NCBI RefSeq assembly: GCF_000304355.2
Contig: NC_018227.2
Coordinates: 434,001 to 498,000 of the forward strand
Length of the DNA: 64,000 nt
Source of the DNA: Methanoculleus bourgensis MS2
Lineage (GTDB): Archaea; Halobacteriota; Methanomicrobia; Methanomicrobiales; Methanoculleaceae
Direction: 5' to 3'
Shown: positions 50,184-56,998 of the stretch, piece by piece
How positions within the stretch are numbered: the first letter of the stretch is position 1
Layout of the letters: every line of letters starts with the position of its first letter
The notes under the pieces: generated by a model
What the model saw: only the letters and a program-made list of their open reading frames with translations
Told to the model about the DNA's origin: nothing
The model's database searches: none
Position numbers and translations under genes: made by a program

Positions 50184-53051
50184 TCAAACCACCTCTCCGG
50201 TCTCCGCTTCCCCCGGCGTTACATTCAGGTCTGCCGGAGGCGGTTGTTCACCGGTTTCTGTCTCTTCTGGAGTAATTGGCGTCTCCTCCGGCGTCATGGT
50301 CTCTTCCACCGGCGGGGTGCCCTCCTCTTCTGGGACCACTTCGACCAGCCCTGCGTTCCGCGTCACCGTCCCGGACAGCGCAACGTCAAACGTATCGGTC
50401 GTGCCGGTCGCGGGGTCGACGTCACTCCCTGATCCGGGTGCGGTGAATCCAAACCCCTCCGGCAGCGTAAACCGGAGGAGGTAGGTTCCCGGCTCGTCGA
50501 CGTTGAAGGTATACCCGCCGTCGTCTCCCGTGGTTGTCGTGCCGGCCGGTGCACCGTCAGCACCCACGAGTTCCACGCCGAGACCCGGGATACCGGGCTC
50601 ACCTGCGTCCCGTGCGCCGTTGGCGTTGGTGTCGTCCCAGGCGGTGCCGGTGACGATACCGGGCTCCAGCGGGGGCGGGGCCTCTACGACCACCCCGGCA
50701 TCCCGGGTGAGGTCGTCACCGGTGAGTTCAAACGGTCCGGTTCTCCCTGTCTCCGGGTCTGCGTCGCTATCGAGAGGATCGTCGCCCGCGTTCGGCGTCG
50801 TGAATGCGACCCCCTCAGGCAGGACGAACTCGAGGATGTAGGTCTGCCCGACCCTTCCCTGCAGGGCATACCTGCCGTCGTCCCCGGTGGTCGCCTCAAG
50901 TGCAGTTCCGGCATCGTCTGTGACCGGGCTCCCCTCTGCGTCCAGGAGCCTCATGGTGACGCCTCCAAACCCGGGTTCTCCGTCGTCCTGGATGCCGTTT
51001 GCATCTGTGTCGTTCCAGACAAAGTCGCCGATGGTTGCACGCTCAGGGACGGCCCCCGCATCACGGGTGACCTCTGTCTCGTCCCGGGTGAGTGTGAAGT
51101 TCTCTGTCCTGCCGGTCGCGGGGTCGGCGTCGCTGTCGAGGGTGTCATCGCTGCCCTGGTCTGCGGCCGTGAAGGTGTAGCCCTCCGGCAGGCCAAAGAC
51201 CAGGTAGTAGTCGCCCTGTGGCAGGCCGGTGAAGAGGTAGGTCCCCGCCTCACCGGTCGTCGTGGCGTTGGCGGGCGTGTCGTTTGTGTGGTAGAGGGTT
51301 ACTGAGGCGCCGGGGAGCCCCGGTTCGTCCCCATCCTGGATACCGTCTTCGTTCGCGTCTATCCAGGTGCGGCCATCAACCTGGCCGGTTATCTCTGGTT
51401 GCGGCACGATGAGCCCCGCATCCCACCAGACCTGCTTCTCCCCGGCCTTGAGGGTGATCTTTTCAGTCATACCGGTCGTGCGGTTCGCGTCGCTGTCGCG
51501 CGTATCATCGTCACCTGCATCCAGTGTTGTGAAGACCATCCCTTCGGGGGGCACGAACTCCACGATGTAGTCGCCGGGCATGAGGTTGGCGAAGAGGTAC
51601 CTGCCGTCCGCGCCGGTCTCTGTTGTGGCAATCTTGCGATGCTCTGTGTCGAGGAGAGTAACATTAACGCCTTCAAGCCCCGGTTCTCCGGGGTTCTGGA
51701 TGCCGTCTGTGTTGGTATCGTTCCAGACAAAGTCACCGATCGAGGCTGGTGCGACAGTGGGCGTAGGCCGGGGTTTCGGCGGCCAGACCTTCGGTGGTTT
51801 CGGCGGTTTTTCGGGTGGTTTCGGCACAGCCTGCGGCTGTACGGAGAGTTTCACGACCCAGGCATCGGTCTCCACCGCCCCGTCCTTCTCGGTCGCATTG
51901 AACGTCCCGGCGAACGCATACTCGACGTTCGATACCTGGACAACCGAAGCCGCCCGGTCTCCGGGGTTGGCCCCGCCGACCGTTATGCTCCCTTCAACTC
52001 CTCCCGTGCTGTCGAGCTTGACGACCCAGGCGTCGCCCCCGGCCGGGTCCTTCCCGCTCTCTCCGACAAAGAGGTATCCTCCGTCGGCCGTGGCGATGAT
52101 CGCTTCAGCAGACTCGTTCGTCTCCGCATCCCCGTAGGTCCAGTTCCAGACGACCCCTCCGTCAGGGCCCATCTTGACGACCAGCGCATCGTCCTCAGTC
52201 CGGTTGGCCGCATCCCTGCTCATGTAACTCCCGGCAAAGACGAGACCTCCGTCCGGTGTCGCCACGAGCGCCCGGCCGGTATCGTTCTCGGGGCCGCCGA
52301 ACGTCCTGTTCCAGACCTCGTTCCCCGCCGGATCAAGTTTCGTGACCCAGACGTCGGTGGCAAACGCTCCAAACGACTCGGTGCTCCCTGCGACGGCGAT
52401 GTTACCGTCTGAGGTTTCAGCGACCGAGTATGCAGCATCAGAGACTCCTGGCTCACCGAAGATCCGTCTCCACTCCTCACCCCCGCTGGCGTTGAGTTTG
52501 AACACCAAGATATTGGTAGCAGGGGACCCCCAGGGCGCAACCGTCCCGGCGACGACGTAGCCGCCGTCACGGGTCTCGGCGGCCGCGTATGCCGATGCAT
52601 TGACCTCGGCCCCGCCGAACGTCCTGTTCCAGACGATCTCTCCCCGGGGGTCGAACTTCACGACCCACACATCGGTGTCCTTCCGTGTGCCACGGGTCAC
52701 GTAGGTGAGCGACCCCGCAAAGAGGTAGTTCCCGTCGGTTGTGCTGATCAGCGCACGCGCGGTATCCGCCTCGCCGCCGCCGAACGTCCTGTTCCAGCGC
52801 TCATCACCTGTTCCGGTCAGGTTGACCACCCAGGCGTCACGCTCCCCGGCCCCGAACGAACCGGTATCCCCGGCGAAGAGGTAGCCTCTCCCGCCCGGTT
52901 GCTGGAGAAGCGCGTATGCCGAGTCGTTTGCGTCCGGGCCGCCGTAGGTCTTATTCCAGACGACCGAGAAGTCCACTGCGGCCGCGCTCGACGTCGCGAT
53001 GAGCGTGCATGCCAGCAGCACCATCGCCATCAAACAGAGGTTTTGCTTCAT
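50184..53051 (-). CDS. Secreted seven-bladed propeller protein with four SdrD_B domains
   Basis: The 955-aa protein has a signal peptide (LMAMVLLACTLIATSSAAA), then seven propeller blades each ending in 'DxWVVKL..G..xWNRTFGG' (about residues 30-405). A Pro/Lys linker (PKPPEKPPKPPKVWPPKPRP) follows, then four Cna-B/SdrD_B-like modules starting SIGDFVWNDTNTDGIQ, DGRTWIDANEDGIQ, TIGDFVWNDTDANGIQ and TGTAWDDTNANGARD. The tail is acidic and Thr/Pro-rich (EETMTPEETPITPEETETG) with no membrane anchor, so it is secreted or held non-covalently. The calcium-binding DxNxDG loops recur. It shares architecture and promoter with the 56-kb gene. Confidence 0.88.
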   Translation of the reverse strand: MKQNLCLMAMVLLACTLIATSSAAAVDFSVVWNKTYGGPDANDSAYALLQQPGGRGYLFAGDTGSFGAGERDAWVVNLTGTGDERWNRTFGGGEADTARALISTTDGNYLFAGSLTYVTRGTRKDTDVWVVKFDPRGEIVWNRTFGGAEVNASAYAAAETRDGGYVVAGTVAPWGSPATNILVFKLNASGGEEWRRIFGEPGVSDAAYSVAETSDGNIAVAGSTESFGAFATDVWVTKLDPAGNEVWNRTFGGPENDTGRALVATPDGGLVFAGSYMSRDAANRTEDDALVVKMGPDGGVVWNWTYGDAETNESAEAIIATADGGYLFVGESGKDPAGGDAWVVKLDSTGGVEGSITVGGANPGDRAASVVQVSNVEYAFAGTFNATEKDGAVETDAWVVKLSVQPQAVPKPPEKPPKPPKVWPPKPRPTPTVAPASIGDFVWNDTNTDGIQNPGEPGLEGVNVTLLDTEHRKIATTETGADGRYLFANLMPGDYIVEFVPPEGMVFTTLDAGDDDTRDSDANRTTGMTEKITLKAGEKQVWWDAGLIVPQPEITGQVDGRTWIDANEDGIQDGDEPGLPGASVTLYHTNDTPANATTTGEAGTYLFTGLPQGDYYLVFGLPEGYTFTAADQGSDDTLDSDADPATGRTENFTLTRDETEVTRDAGAVPERATIGDFVWNDTDANGIQDDGEPGFGGVTMRLLDAEGSPVTDDAGTALEATTGDDGRYALQGRVGQTYILEFVLPEGVAFTTPNAGDDPLDSDADPETGRTGPFELTGDDLTRDAGVVVEAPPPLEPGIVTGTAWDDTNANGARDAGEPGIPGLGVELVGADGAPAGTTTTGDDGGYTFNVDEPGTYLLRFTLPEGFGFTAPGSGSDVDPATGTTDTFDVALSGTVTRNAGLVEVVPEEEGTPPVEETMTPEETPITPEETETGEQPPPADLNVTPGEAETGEVV

Positions 53052-53428
53052 ATCACATCTCCTGGCTTGTTACCGTCCCCTCACGCGTCCTCCTGCCTGC
53101 CCGTGCTCCTGGAGGCGAGTGAAATGGCGTGCCTGATTAGGGCTGCTGGTTGGTATCTGTGGTTGTGATGGTCTGTGTTCGACTCTGGAGCAGTGCTTGC
53201 AACACCGTCCGCTGAGAGGGCCAGTTACAATAATCCAATTATTATAATAATGTTGTTATGGTTACGCGGTCGACGCCCCCGGATCATCGGGCGAGTCCCG
53301 TGAGTCTGACCGGCAGGAACCCTCCGGGACAGAGACCGCCGTGCTGTCGCATCCCTATACGGATCAAGCCCACCGATAGCCTCCGGCGGCATCGTAGCGG
53401 TGCAAAAAGAGGTTAGCGGGAGTGGCCG
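53052..53428. other. Long leader and promoter of the 955-aa protein gene
   Basis: About 375 bp without a gene. The promoter block at 53225-53254 lies 174 bp upstream of the start codon, so the transcript would carry a leader of about 150 nt. Confidence 0.45.
53225..53254 (-). promoter_or_regulatory. Palindromic AT-rich promoter block, surface gene 1
   Basis: It contains the perfect palindrome ATTATTATAATAAT at 53238-53251. The 30-bp block matches 24 of 30 positions of the one at 56842-56871, upstream of the paralogous gene and in the same orientation. Confidence 0.55.
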
Positions 53429-53914
53429 TCAGCCCCTGGCCGGCACCAGCCCCGCATCCCTGACAGCGAGGTCGGTCTCCCTGATGATCTCCCGGGTCAG
53501 GTTGATGCTTGAGGTTGTTCTGCTGACCGGGTCAACGCTGCTGGCCGTATCGCCGGGTTCGCCCCGGCCGGGGACGGTGAAGGCGTAGCCCTCCGGCGGG
53601 ACGACCTCGACGGTGTAGTTCCCCGGGAGGACGCCGCTGAAGATGTAGAGCCCCTCACAGGCATGGGAGAATGTCTCTGCCGTCGCAATCCTCTCCCCGG
53701 TGGCGCTCAGGAGGTGGACGGCGATGCCGCTCATGCCCCACTCGCCGGGGTCCTGCACGCCGTTGGCGTCGGCATCCAGAAAGACTGTTCCCCCGATGGT
53801 GCCGATGGACTTCTCTGCTCCCGGTCCCGGCGGGGCTTGGACTGCCGCGCTTGCGACCGAACCGAACACGAACGCTGATACGATGATGGCTGCAAGAATG
53901 CTGATCTCTCTCAA
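53429..53914 (-). CDS. Small secreted SdrD_B-domain protein
   Basis: The 161-aa protein has a signal peptide (ISILAAIIVSAFVFGSVASA) and one Cna-B/SdrD_B-like module: GGTVFLDADANGVQDPGEWG, then YIFSGVLPGNYTVEVVPPEGY and a final DLAVRDAGLVPARG. There is no propeller, stalk or membrane anchor. It lies between two large paralogues carrying the same module and looks like a minimal family member. A palindrome ATATTAATAT lies about 165 bp upstream (54078-54087), where the paralogues carry theirs. Confidence 0.82.
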   Translation of the reverse strand: MREISILAAIIVSAFVFGSVASAAVQAPPGPGAEKSIGTIGGTVFLDADANGVQDPGEWGMSGIAVHLLSATGERIATAETFSHACEGLYIFSGVLPGNYTVEVVPPEGYAFTVPGRGEPGDTASSVDPVSRTTSSINLTREIIRETDLAVRDAGLVPARG

Positions 53915-54077
53915 TCAGTTCACCTCACCTCCCGGATGCCTCATTGGGCCGTCCGGGTGCGTGAACCCCGCGGAGGGTGCAGTATCCGTCTGCGTTCCCC
54001 TCCGGCTGCCGAGCGGTCCGGGTTTTTCCTGTTCCGGCGCCGACTTTGGAGTTCCGACTCGGAATAGTCTTTATCAT

Positions 54078-54087
54078 ATATTAATAT
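54078..54087. promoter_or_regulatory. AT palindrome upstream of the small SdrD_B gene
   Basis: ATATTAATAT sits in an AT-rich stretch (54068-54098) 164 bp upstream of ATG 53914, at nearly the same distance as the blocks of the two paralogous genes. Confidence 0.4.
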
Positions 54088-54180
54088 CTCCATATTTCGT
54101 GCGGAGGTTTTTATCGGCATTGAACTCCAAGCCGGCCGAATCTCGTATTATGCTCCCTGCTCTCATCAGTGCCGTTGCGT

Positions 54181-56688
54181 TCAATCATCTCCCTGCTTCG
54201 GCCGGTCTTCTCCGGGCTTGTGACGGTCGTCCTGGTCCTTGCTCTTCTCCCTGTCAGGTCCGTCGTCGTCATCCTCCCGTGGGCCGCCGGAGGCTTCACC
54301 GTCCGGCTCCTGCGGCTCACTGGTTATGACCTGCTCTTCCCGCTCCTCCTCTGCCGCATCGTCGACGTCATCCCGCTTCTTGCTATCGCCGATTTCCTCA
54401 TCAGGCTCGTTGGTCTCCCCCGGAGGCAGGGATTGGGCCGGGGCCAGCGAGAGGATCAGCCCTGCATCCCTGACGATCGTCTCCCCCCCGCCTACTCTGA
54501 AAGGATCGGTCATGCCGGTCAGCGGGTCGGCATGGCTGTCCCTGCCCGGGTCTGTGAAGATGTAGTTCTCAGGCGCGGTGAACGCAAGGGAGTATTCCCC
54601 GGGCAGGAGGGGACCAAAGAGGTACATGGAGGTGTAGTAGTCATGGTATCTCGTGCGGGCCGATGCCACCACAGCGCCGCCTGCGTCCAAGAGGCGGACC
54701 TCGATGTCGGTCAAGCCGTACATATCGTCATTGACACCGTCCCGGTTACCATCGCTCCAGACTGTGCCGCGCACCCACCCATAGGCCGCAACCGGGGTTC
54801 CGGCCTGGTACCCCCCGACGAACCCTGCGTTCAGGGTGTGCCGGGAATCATCGCCTTCCGCAAATGCTACGGTCCCGCCGATCGGGCGGGCGTCGCTGCC
54901 AGAACCGGGGGTGGTGCAGGAGTAGCCGTCCGGCATGAGGAACTCTACGCCGGCGTAGCCGCCGGTGGGGAGGGATGAGAACCGGTATGACCCGTCGGAA
55001 CCGGTGACAGTATAATCAGACATGGTCCGGTGGCCGATCAGCCGCACGCTGATGCCTGGGATGCCCGGCTCGCCGGGATTGCGGCTGCCATCCGCGTTCA
55101 GGTCGTACCAGACCATCCCTGACAGCGGTCCGCTGCTCCCGTCATCATTGTGATCGTCTCCGTCATTCTCGTCCCCATCATGGGTATTCGGCTTCTCAGT
55201 CGGAGTTGGCGTCGGCGTCGGGGTCCAAGTCGCCGTTACCGTCGCCGTCGGCTCCTTCGTCGGTTTTGCGGTCTTGGTGGGCCTGGGCGTCGGGGTCTCT
55301 GTCGGGGCTTTGGTTATCGTCGGCTTTGGGGTTGCGGTCGCGACCGGCGTCGTTATCACCGCTGTTGGGGTGGCCGTCACCGCTGGTTTCTGGTGTACCG
55401 CCGGCGCTTTCGGGGGCTTTAAGGGTGCCGCCGTGGGTGTCGGTCCCGGTGTTGGCGTCGGCTCCGGAACAGGTCCCTGTCTTACGACCCACGCATCCGT
55501 GTTCACGGCCCCTCCCCTTGCCGTGGCATTGAACGTCCCCGCGAAGAGGAGCCAGTCCTCTGCAGGCTGCAGGACCGACACCGCCCGGTCGCCGGGGTTC
55601 ATGCCGCCGAAGGTCCTGCTCCATGCCACCGCTCCTTCGGCGTCGGTCCCGACAAGCCAGGCATCGGTGTCATCCATCCCGGGAAACCCGGTCTCCCCAG
55701 CGAATATGTAGCCTCCATCGGAGGTCTCGATGACTGCACTGGCCGACTCGTTCACGCCCACGTCCCCGTAGATCCAGTTCCAGATGATATCCCCGTCGGG
55801 CGTGAGTTTCATGAGGAGGGCATCGGTATCGACGGTTTCGTTGTCGGGCCTCTCAGTGAACGTGCCGGCGATGAGGATGTTGCCGTCTGTTGTGTTGATC
55901 ACCGCCCGGGCGTCATCATCGTCGGGGCTCCCGAACGTCCTGTTCCAGACCTCGTCGCCTGATGCATTCAGCCTGACCACCCAGGCGTCCGCCTTCCCCG
56001 CCCCCGAAGAGTCGGTGCTGCCGGCAAAGATGAAATCCCCGCCGGGAAGCCGTGTGACGGCGTTTGCTGTGCTGTTTCCGGCCCCGCCGAACGTCCTGTT
56101 CCAGACCTCGTCGCCTGATTCGTTCAGCCTGACCACCCAGGCCCCGGACCTGTTCTCTCCCCAGGGCGCGATGGAGCCGACGAATACGTAGCCGCCGTCA
56201 TCGGTCCCGATCACCGCGTTTGCCGACGCGTTGACGTCCGGCCCGCCGTAGGTCCGGTTCCAGATCTCGCTGCCTGAGGGGTCTATCTTTACAACCCAGG
56301 CATCGGTATCCAGCCTTGTTCTGTTGGTAACGAGGGTGAGGGTGCCAGCAACAAGGAGGTTGCCGTCGCCGGTCTGGATGATGGACCGGGCGGTGTCGGC
56401 CTCCTCCCCTCCGTAGGTACTGTTCCACGCTTCGTTGCCCTCCGGCGTCAGCCTGACCACCCAGGCGTCCGCCTTCCCCGCCCCGAACGTTTCAGTCTCC
56501 CCGGCGAGAAAGAATCCTGTCCCTCCGGGGTCAGCGATGATTGCGTATGCGGTCTCCCCGGCAGCAGGCCCACCATACGTCCGGTTCCAGGTAACGGTAT
56601 AATCATCCGGCTCCGCTCCCGCGAGCGCAATGAACACAAGTGCCGACAGGAACAGGATAATGATCCAATAATACATGCCACGTTGCAT
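54181..56688 (-). CDS. Secreted seven-bladed propeller protein with two SdrD_B domains
   Basis: The 835-aa protein has a signal peptide (WIIILFLSALVFIALAGA), seven propeller blades with the 'WNRTFGG' and 'DAWVVRL' pattern, and a long Pro/Thr linker (TPTPGPTPTAAPLKPPKAP and repeats of TPTPR/TKTAKPT). An acidic-histidine stretch (DGDENDGDDHNDDG) follows, then two SdrD_B-like modules (SGMVWYDLNADGSRNPGEPG, RGTVWSDGNRDGVND). The C-terminus is a charged tail of about 70 residues (REDDDDGPDREKSKDQDD) without an anchor. The tail is not found in its 50-kb paralogue. ATG 56688 or 56676 could be the start. Confidence 0.87.
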   Translation of the reverse strand: MQRGMYYWIIILFLSALVFIALAGAEPDDYTVTWNRTYGGPAAGETAYAIIADPGGTGFFLAGETETFGAGKADAWVVRLTPEGNEAWNSTYGGEEADTARSIIQTGDGNLLVAGTLTLVTNRTRLDTDAWVVKIDPSGSEIWNRTYGGPDVNASANAVIGTDDGGYVFVGSIAPWGENRSGAWVVRLNESGDEVWNRTFGGAGNSTANAVTRLPGGDFIFAGSTDSSGAGKADAWVVRLNASGDEVWNRTFGSPDDDDARAVINTTDGNILIAGTFTERPDNETVDTDALLMKLTPDGDIIWNWIYGDVGVNESASAVIETSDGGYIFAGETGFPGMDDTDAWLVGTDAEGAVAWSRTFGGMNPGDRAVSVLQPAEDWLLFAGTFNATARGGAVNTDAWVVRQGPVPEPTPTPGPTPTAAPLKPPKAPAVHQKPAVTATPTAVITTPVATATPKPTITKAPTETPTPRPTKTAKPTKEPTATVTATWTPTPTPTPTEKPNTHDGDENDGDDHNDDGSSGPLSGMVWYDLNADGSRNPGEPGIPGISVRLIGHRTMSDYTVTGSDGSYRFSSLPTGGYAGVEFLMPDGYSCTTPGSGSDARPIGGTVAFAEGDDSRHTLNAGFVGGYQAGTPVAAYGWVRGTVWSDGNRDGVNDDMYGLTDIEVRLLDAGGAVVASARTRYHDYYTSMYLFGPLLPGEYSLAFTAPENYIFTDPGRDSHADPLTGMTDPFRVGGGETIVRDAGLILSLAPAQSLPPGETNEPDEEIGDSKKRDDVDDAAEEEREEQVITSEPQEPDGEASGGPREDDDDGPDREKSKDQDDRHKPGEDRPKQGDD

Positions 56689-56998
56689 AGGTCTACCTCT
56701 GAATCATCTCCACCCCGGCGTTCCCTGGTATCATCCCCGTCTTTCCGGGGATTATGGCGGTCGCCATGCAATACGGGTTTACTGGTTGATGGTCGGGTCT
56801 CCTGCAGAGCCCGGGGTATCAGGAGCACCGCGGGGTTTGCACTTCAATAGTACAACTATTATAATAATCTTATTTCCAAACGGGGGTATGAGGGTGGCCC
56901 GAACGTAGTCGATACCCGAGGGACCGGGTGCGCCAGGTGGCCACCCTCTCCCACAACTATCAATACGCTTATGAACAAACCCTGGATAGGAGACCTGC
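56689..56998. other. Divergent intergenic region, surface gene 3 and PfpI
   Basis: About 310 bp without a gene. It holds the promoter block at 56842-56871 and, nearer the surface gene, a CATCCCC...GGGGATTATGG hairpin (about 56730-56760) within the presumed leader. Confidence 0.45.
56842..56871 (-). promoter_or_regulatory. Palindromic AT-rich promoter block, surface gene 3
   Basis: It has a one-base-imperfect ATTATTATAATAGT palindrome in a 30-bp block that matches the block upstream of the 955-aa protein gene at 24 positions. It lies 154 bp upstream of ATG 56688. Confidence 0.55.

Follow-up and report, generated by a model that had tools for sequence, protein, structure and literature searches.

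Gene B of Methanoculleus bourgensis MS2, which encodes a small secreted protein with one SdrD_B domain, is preceded by a leader with a conserved predicted RNA fold that pairs its SD sequence, and our fold modelling suggests that translation of B is probably regulated through two alternative folds of this leader. An earlier note on this DNA had described palindromic promoter elements shared by B and its two larger neighbours, A and C. That observation is right, but the palindromic shared operator it suggested is mostly an effect of the TATA box and of paralogy, and the leader of B is the part worth following. We give about even chances to the joint reading that the three genes form a Methanoculleus surface/secreted-protein locus, composed of a conserved pair C-B plus A, a paralogue of C, with their own BRE/TATA promoters, long leaders, and two-fold translational control of B.

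Gene content and distribution of the locus

The window analysed is a stretch of 64,000 nucleotides from a genome of 2,789,774 bp that consists of a single contig. The ORF listing gives the gene order C-B-A, with all three genes on the minus strand. Gene C (54181..56688) encodes a signal peptide, a seven-bladed propeller, two SdrD_B domains, and an acidic tail; gene B (53429..53914) encodes a secreted protein of 161 aa with one SdrD_B domain; and gene A (50184..53051) encodes a signal peptide, a seven-repeat propeller, four SdrD_B domains, and a P/T/E-rich tail. The ORFs, strands, and gene order given in the earlier note agree with our ORF check, except that the start codon of B has to be corrected to TTG; in all relatives, B starts with an NTG codon (ATG, GTG, or TTG).

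Orthologues of C are present in nearly all Methanoculleus genomes. Gene B occurs as a single copy in 23 of 35 Methanoculleus genomes, was found in no other genus of the family, and lies directly downstream of C wherever both genes share one contig. Gene A has a patchy distribution, occurring in only some Methanoculleus, and the complete C-B-A arrangement was found only in this genome and in a near relative (G030).

Domain architecture of the encoded proteins

A profile search for SdrD_B (PF17210) identified four stretches in A, one in B, and two in C. The three proteins score 374, 80.4, and 105.9 bits, above the gathering cut-off of 29.7 and as had been claimed for all three, and the domain was found in no other gene of this genome. 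The layout of a seven-bladed propeller plus SdrD_B domains attributed to two of the genes also holds: for C, the propeller is supported by the predicted fold (28 strands, 7 x 4, pLDDT 84; structure prediction was made for C only), and for A by the alignment of its propeller with that of C (51%).

The nearest solved relative of the C propeller is the propeller domain of CylK (PDB), its best match in both sequence and fold; the identity is about 21%, the propeller is here fused to SdrD_B domains, and no enzyme role is implied. The likeness to SBBP and delta-60-repeat beta-propellers consists of the seven predicted blades. With staphylococcal SdrC/SdrD, the namesakes of the domain, the three proteins share SdrD_B domains above the Pfam cut-off. 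They are nevertheless far from reaching the curated NCBIfam SdrC/SdrD cut-offs (best 208.7 of 2500 bits), the threshold for MSCRAMM SdrC/SdrD adhesins; an N-terminal propeller takes the place of the ligand-binding N domains, and no sortase-type C-terminal anchor is visible. Inspection by eye revealed no obvious C-terminal membrane anchor in A, B, or C, so that these are putative surface proteins, and an adhesive role would likewise be presumed.

Core promoters and predicted leaders

The AT blocks upstream of the three genes can be assigned as promoter elements, as the earlier note had proposed, since they are conserved across the genus at a fixed architecture and the leaders of B and C close with conserved SD sequences. 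On the minus strand, the block of A (53228..53262) is formed by a BRE-like AACAAC, the TATA sequence ATTATTATA, and then AATAAT-TGG-ATTATTG. The block of C (56829..56880, minus strand) has the genus consensus ttTtgaAAtAA.aTTATTATAaTAaT.g.gctATtgaaGTGCagaCCCCgcgg, includes CTATTgaaGTGCAG in this DNA, and was found upstream of 29 of the 29 C orthologues examined in a footprint alignment of Methanoculleus; its conservation sets in sharply at the BRE-like AAATAA, with background identity just upstream. The block of B (54063..54099, minus strand; genus consensus aTAAAAATATTAATATAnTATAAtgcCTATt) contains the AT block ATATTAATAT at 54078-54087, whose sequence is unlike the A/C block. The smallest gene thus does have its own AT element at nearly the same distance, about 173 nt from the start of the TATA block to the start codon compared with 180 nt for C and 200 nt for A.

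The promoter of an unrelated HEAT-repeat gene, compared in 23 genomes as a control, carries gatTTTTATAcacAAtATTATTATA, then TTAT. Since ATTATTATA also occurs in this promoter, it is best read as the TATA box of the genus, and its palindromic symmetry follows from the TATA sequence. The three promoters have the features of archaeal BRE/TATA core promoters, namely a conserved TATA-like box with an A-rich BRE-like stretch just upstream, an AT-rich TATT about 10 nt downstream of the box, and a long leader with an SD, as in the control promoters of the genus. The promoter of C differs in being conserved for about 25 nt beyond the TATA box (TATTgaaGTGCAGaCCCC), farther than the HEAT control; either an operator or an element at the 5' end of the mRNA could account for this extra conservation. 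In the mechanism we propose, A, B, and C would each have a core promoter of their own, from which transcripts with a long 5' leader are made.

Applying the spacing of 19-22 nt between TATA box and transcription start described for Methanolobus (PMC5378194), leaders of about 170 nt for A (53052..53222), about 150 nt for C (56689..56840), and about 145 nt for B (53915..54060) are predicted, all on the minus strand. With transcription starts deduced from this spacing, leader lengths of about 140-170 nt are likely. The leader of C ends in the conserved SD GAGAGGTA, and the conserved SD of B, GAGGTGA, is located five bases before the NTG codon. Long leaders had been predicted in the earlier note and are retained here, but their description as unusual in archaea is not, as methanogen 5' UTRs are often long: in Methanolobus psychrophilus, 51% of them are longer than 50 nt and 24% longer than 150 nt (PMC5378194), so that leader length alone is unremarkable, and a review states that methanogens generally have 5' UTRs (PMC3600222). 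In the genus studied here, a TATA-like CTTATAT precedes the mcrB start codon by about 150 nt, and the mcrB leader is therefore probably longer than 100 nt.

Directly downstream of the C promoter, at 56829-56844, the sequence GTGCAGaCCCCgcgg is nearly invariant in the genus. Base pairing between its ACCCC and a GGGGU located ahead of the SD of C is possible in most of the 29 orthologues, in a leader that is not structured beyond chance.

A conserved predicted RNA fold in the leader of gene B

The earlier note had suggested that the three leaders be folded in search of a common structure, and only the leader of B gave a significant result. Its consensus fold in 23 genomes has an energy of -61.3, compared with -38.9 +/- 4.1 in column shuffles (alifold z -5.5, reached in 0 of 100 shuffles); this z value was obtained from an improved alignment, a poorer one having given a weak signal. 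Controls were near chance, with z -1.1 for the first 150 coding bases of B and z +1.3 for mcrB leaders, and the leaders of C (about -0.5) and A (+1.1) were not significant. A closing helix between the first 20 and the last 60 nt of all three leaders (8.9, 9.6, and 10.6 pairs versus about 5 in shuffled sequences) was discarded as a common element, as C and A fail the alignment-based test.

The 3' hairpin of the predicted fold consists of GGUU(a)CAC:GUGAACC atop CCCGGA:UCCGGG. In this genome, its 5' arm GGTTCAC (53961..53967, minus strand) would pair with the SD region at 53917..53926 on the same strand, which comprises the SD GAGGTGA (53920-53926) and the 3' arm GTGAACT (53917-53923). The hairpin has a mean z of -2.3, and about 4 of the 7 SD bases are paired in this conserved, predicted structure. 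An extra C in this genome makes the otherwise bulged helix perfect. Over 22 distinct sequences, 96.8% of the cells of the SD helix are paired and its variation is limited to wobbles; in one of the 23 relatives (L071), parts of this helix are broken. Double changes occur in four pairs, which belong to the other two helices and not to the SD helix, and since 28-49 of 500 shuffles reach these counts, covariation is only weakly above shuffles.

A second strand can compete for this hairpin. The 5' sequence GAACCCC, which is near-invariant in relatives and reads GAACTCC here (54048..54054, minus strand), can pair with the same GGGGUU as the SD hairpin, and when the entire B leader of this genome is folded, the minimum-energy structure favours the GAACTCC pairing. 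A covariance model of the leader (R1) matches at 53912-54053; among 120 genomes of the order, it was found in 19, once per genome, before B only and in Methanoculleus only. Searches with the Rfam covariance models gave no match at the locus at E values up to 1.

It is possible, although in our view somewhat unlikely, that the three genes have nothing more than ordinary strong promoters with neutral leaders, and that the hairpins of B reflect chance in a GC-rich sequence or serve mRNA stability only. Leaders of C and A no more structured than shuffles, the weak covariation in B, and the frequency of long 5' UTRs in methanogens (PMC5378194, PMC3600222) are consistent with such a reading, which does not readily account for a score in the B leader that no shuffle reached while matched controls stayed near zero, nor for an SD pairing kept in nearly all species.

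Two further observations concern other sites. Two mcrB-type loci (methyl-coenzyme M reductase beta-subunit; L096 and L110) share a short leader hairpin of the form GTCCC-loop-GGGAC, or closely similar to it, with GTGCAGTAG after it. It lies about 110 nt ahead of the start codons and is conserved in 21 and 6 genomes, respectively; Rfam gave no match at these loci. In propeller homologues from another genus of the family (L067 and L068), ATTATTATAATAA lies between the inverted arms (G)CAACAT / ATGTTG(C), which may be chance in a comparison of two sequences only.

The A/C promoter block as a possible operator

The blocks of A and C match at 25 of 30 positions in the best 30-mer, close to the 24 claimed previously, and at most 20 matches were obtained in 30 local shuffles preserving the AT block. 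Genome-wide counts were obtained by pattern searches. The 14-mer ATTATTATAATAAT occurs exactly once in the genome, before A, and with one mismatch at four other places, one of which is C. The extended block TTATTATAATARTTGKAYTATTG, with up to 3 mismatches, is present at two places, upstream of A (53228-53250) and upstream of C (56845-56867). The block is thus gene-specific and not scattered, random scatter being the outcome that the earlier note had named as evidence against its proposal. In each of 17 relatives, the extended pattern was found a single time, in every case at a distance of 100-200 bp upstream of the C orthologue.

The simplest reading is that the promoters of A and C would resemble each other because the genes are paralogues. 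It is unlikely that the block instead serves as the operator through which a dedicated regulator controls A and C together, and perhaps B as well. Its presence at only two genomic places, the conservation past the TATA box of C beyond that of the HEAT control, and a dyad kept between A (AATAAT-TGG-ATTATT) and C (AATAGT-TGT-ACTATT) would fit an operator, as would a 2025 study of syntrophic cultures in which stirring and shaking upregulated a Methanoculleus gene whose product has an SdrD B-like domain (PMC12008871); since that gene is not identified as A, B, or C, the study lends general support to regulated expression of such proteins. However, most C orthologues have AATAATnnnGCTATT in place of the dyad, which is therefore not kept, and the compensatory change between A and C was ruled out as operator evidence because relatives carry that sequence. 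The symmetry of the palindrome is broken in the C orthologues of G030, G005, G029, and G034. The full block is found before A and C only; B has a different block, the A orthologues of other species carry ATATTAATATATATTT, and no conserved motif was seen upstream of the BRE. With neither the palindrome nor the second dyad strictly kept and with a different block before B, one operator for three genes is unsupported. Gene-specific control, where present, would most likely act at or downstream of the TATA box and not at a shared upstream operator.

A site elsewhere in the genome with TATA, CTATTG, and GACCCC (L160, genome position 1355866) was considered as a fourth member and rejected, as GACCCC is not conserved in 12 relatives and the AT block is consistent with a promoter for a divergent secreted-protein gene; a second match of the pattern (L164, 2564554) is without such a setting. 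In the same region (L160:1443-1559, genome 1355808-1355924), about 115 bp upstream of the gene for a secreted 420-aa protein are conserved in about 29 of 35 genomes of the genus, including AATATaAATATTATTATATT, at a short distance from the start codon.

A candidate translational switch

In the proposed mechanism for B, the GGUU(a)CAC arm of the leader hairpin would pair with the SD GAGGUGA plus AACC and limit translation, and the 5' GAACCCC would take GGGGUU away and free the SD. We propose a two-state switch because GAACCCC is able to pair with the same GGGGUU; that the two folds alternate in the cell in response to a trigger is what we infer from this competition. The arrangement resembles SD-sequestering cis-regulatory leaders, such as thermosensors and translational riboswitches, in having a conserved hairpin that pairs the SD immediately ahead of the start codon and a competing upstream strand; it differs in its lack of an Rfam match and in its restriction to one gene in one archaeal genus. 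The full proposal, which we consider tentative and rather unlikely as it stands, is that of a new archaeal RNA switch in which GGGGUUAC would alternate between the 5' GAACCCC (SD free) and the SD/AACC segment (SD covered), with synthesis of the small SdrD_B protein following a signal, for example temperature or the presence of an ion, small RNA, or protein.

That the hairpins of B instead function at the DNA level, as inverted repeats bound by a protein, or attenuate transcription is very unlikely: the antisense strand has the same fold score, so that the fold does not decide the strand, and the repeats are also inverted repeats in DNA, but the tolerated changes are mostly of the G-U wobble type (U-A to U-G, A-U to G-U, C-G to U-G), a better fit to RNA, the hairpin arm pairs the SD itself, and no U-tract follows the hairpin.

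Methanoculleus are the principal hydrogen consumers among the methanogens in many biogas plants, and the control of their surface proteins appears to be uncharted. The footprints presented here provide a first consensus for Methanoculleus core promoters. To our knowledge, few cis-acting RNA elements controlling translation are known in archaea, and the B hairpin is a genus-wide and apparently undescribed switch candidate. A leader found across the genus that is able to cover the SD of a secreted protein with an adhesin domain is directly testable by reporter.
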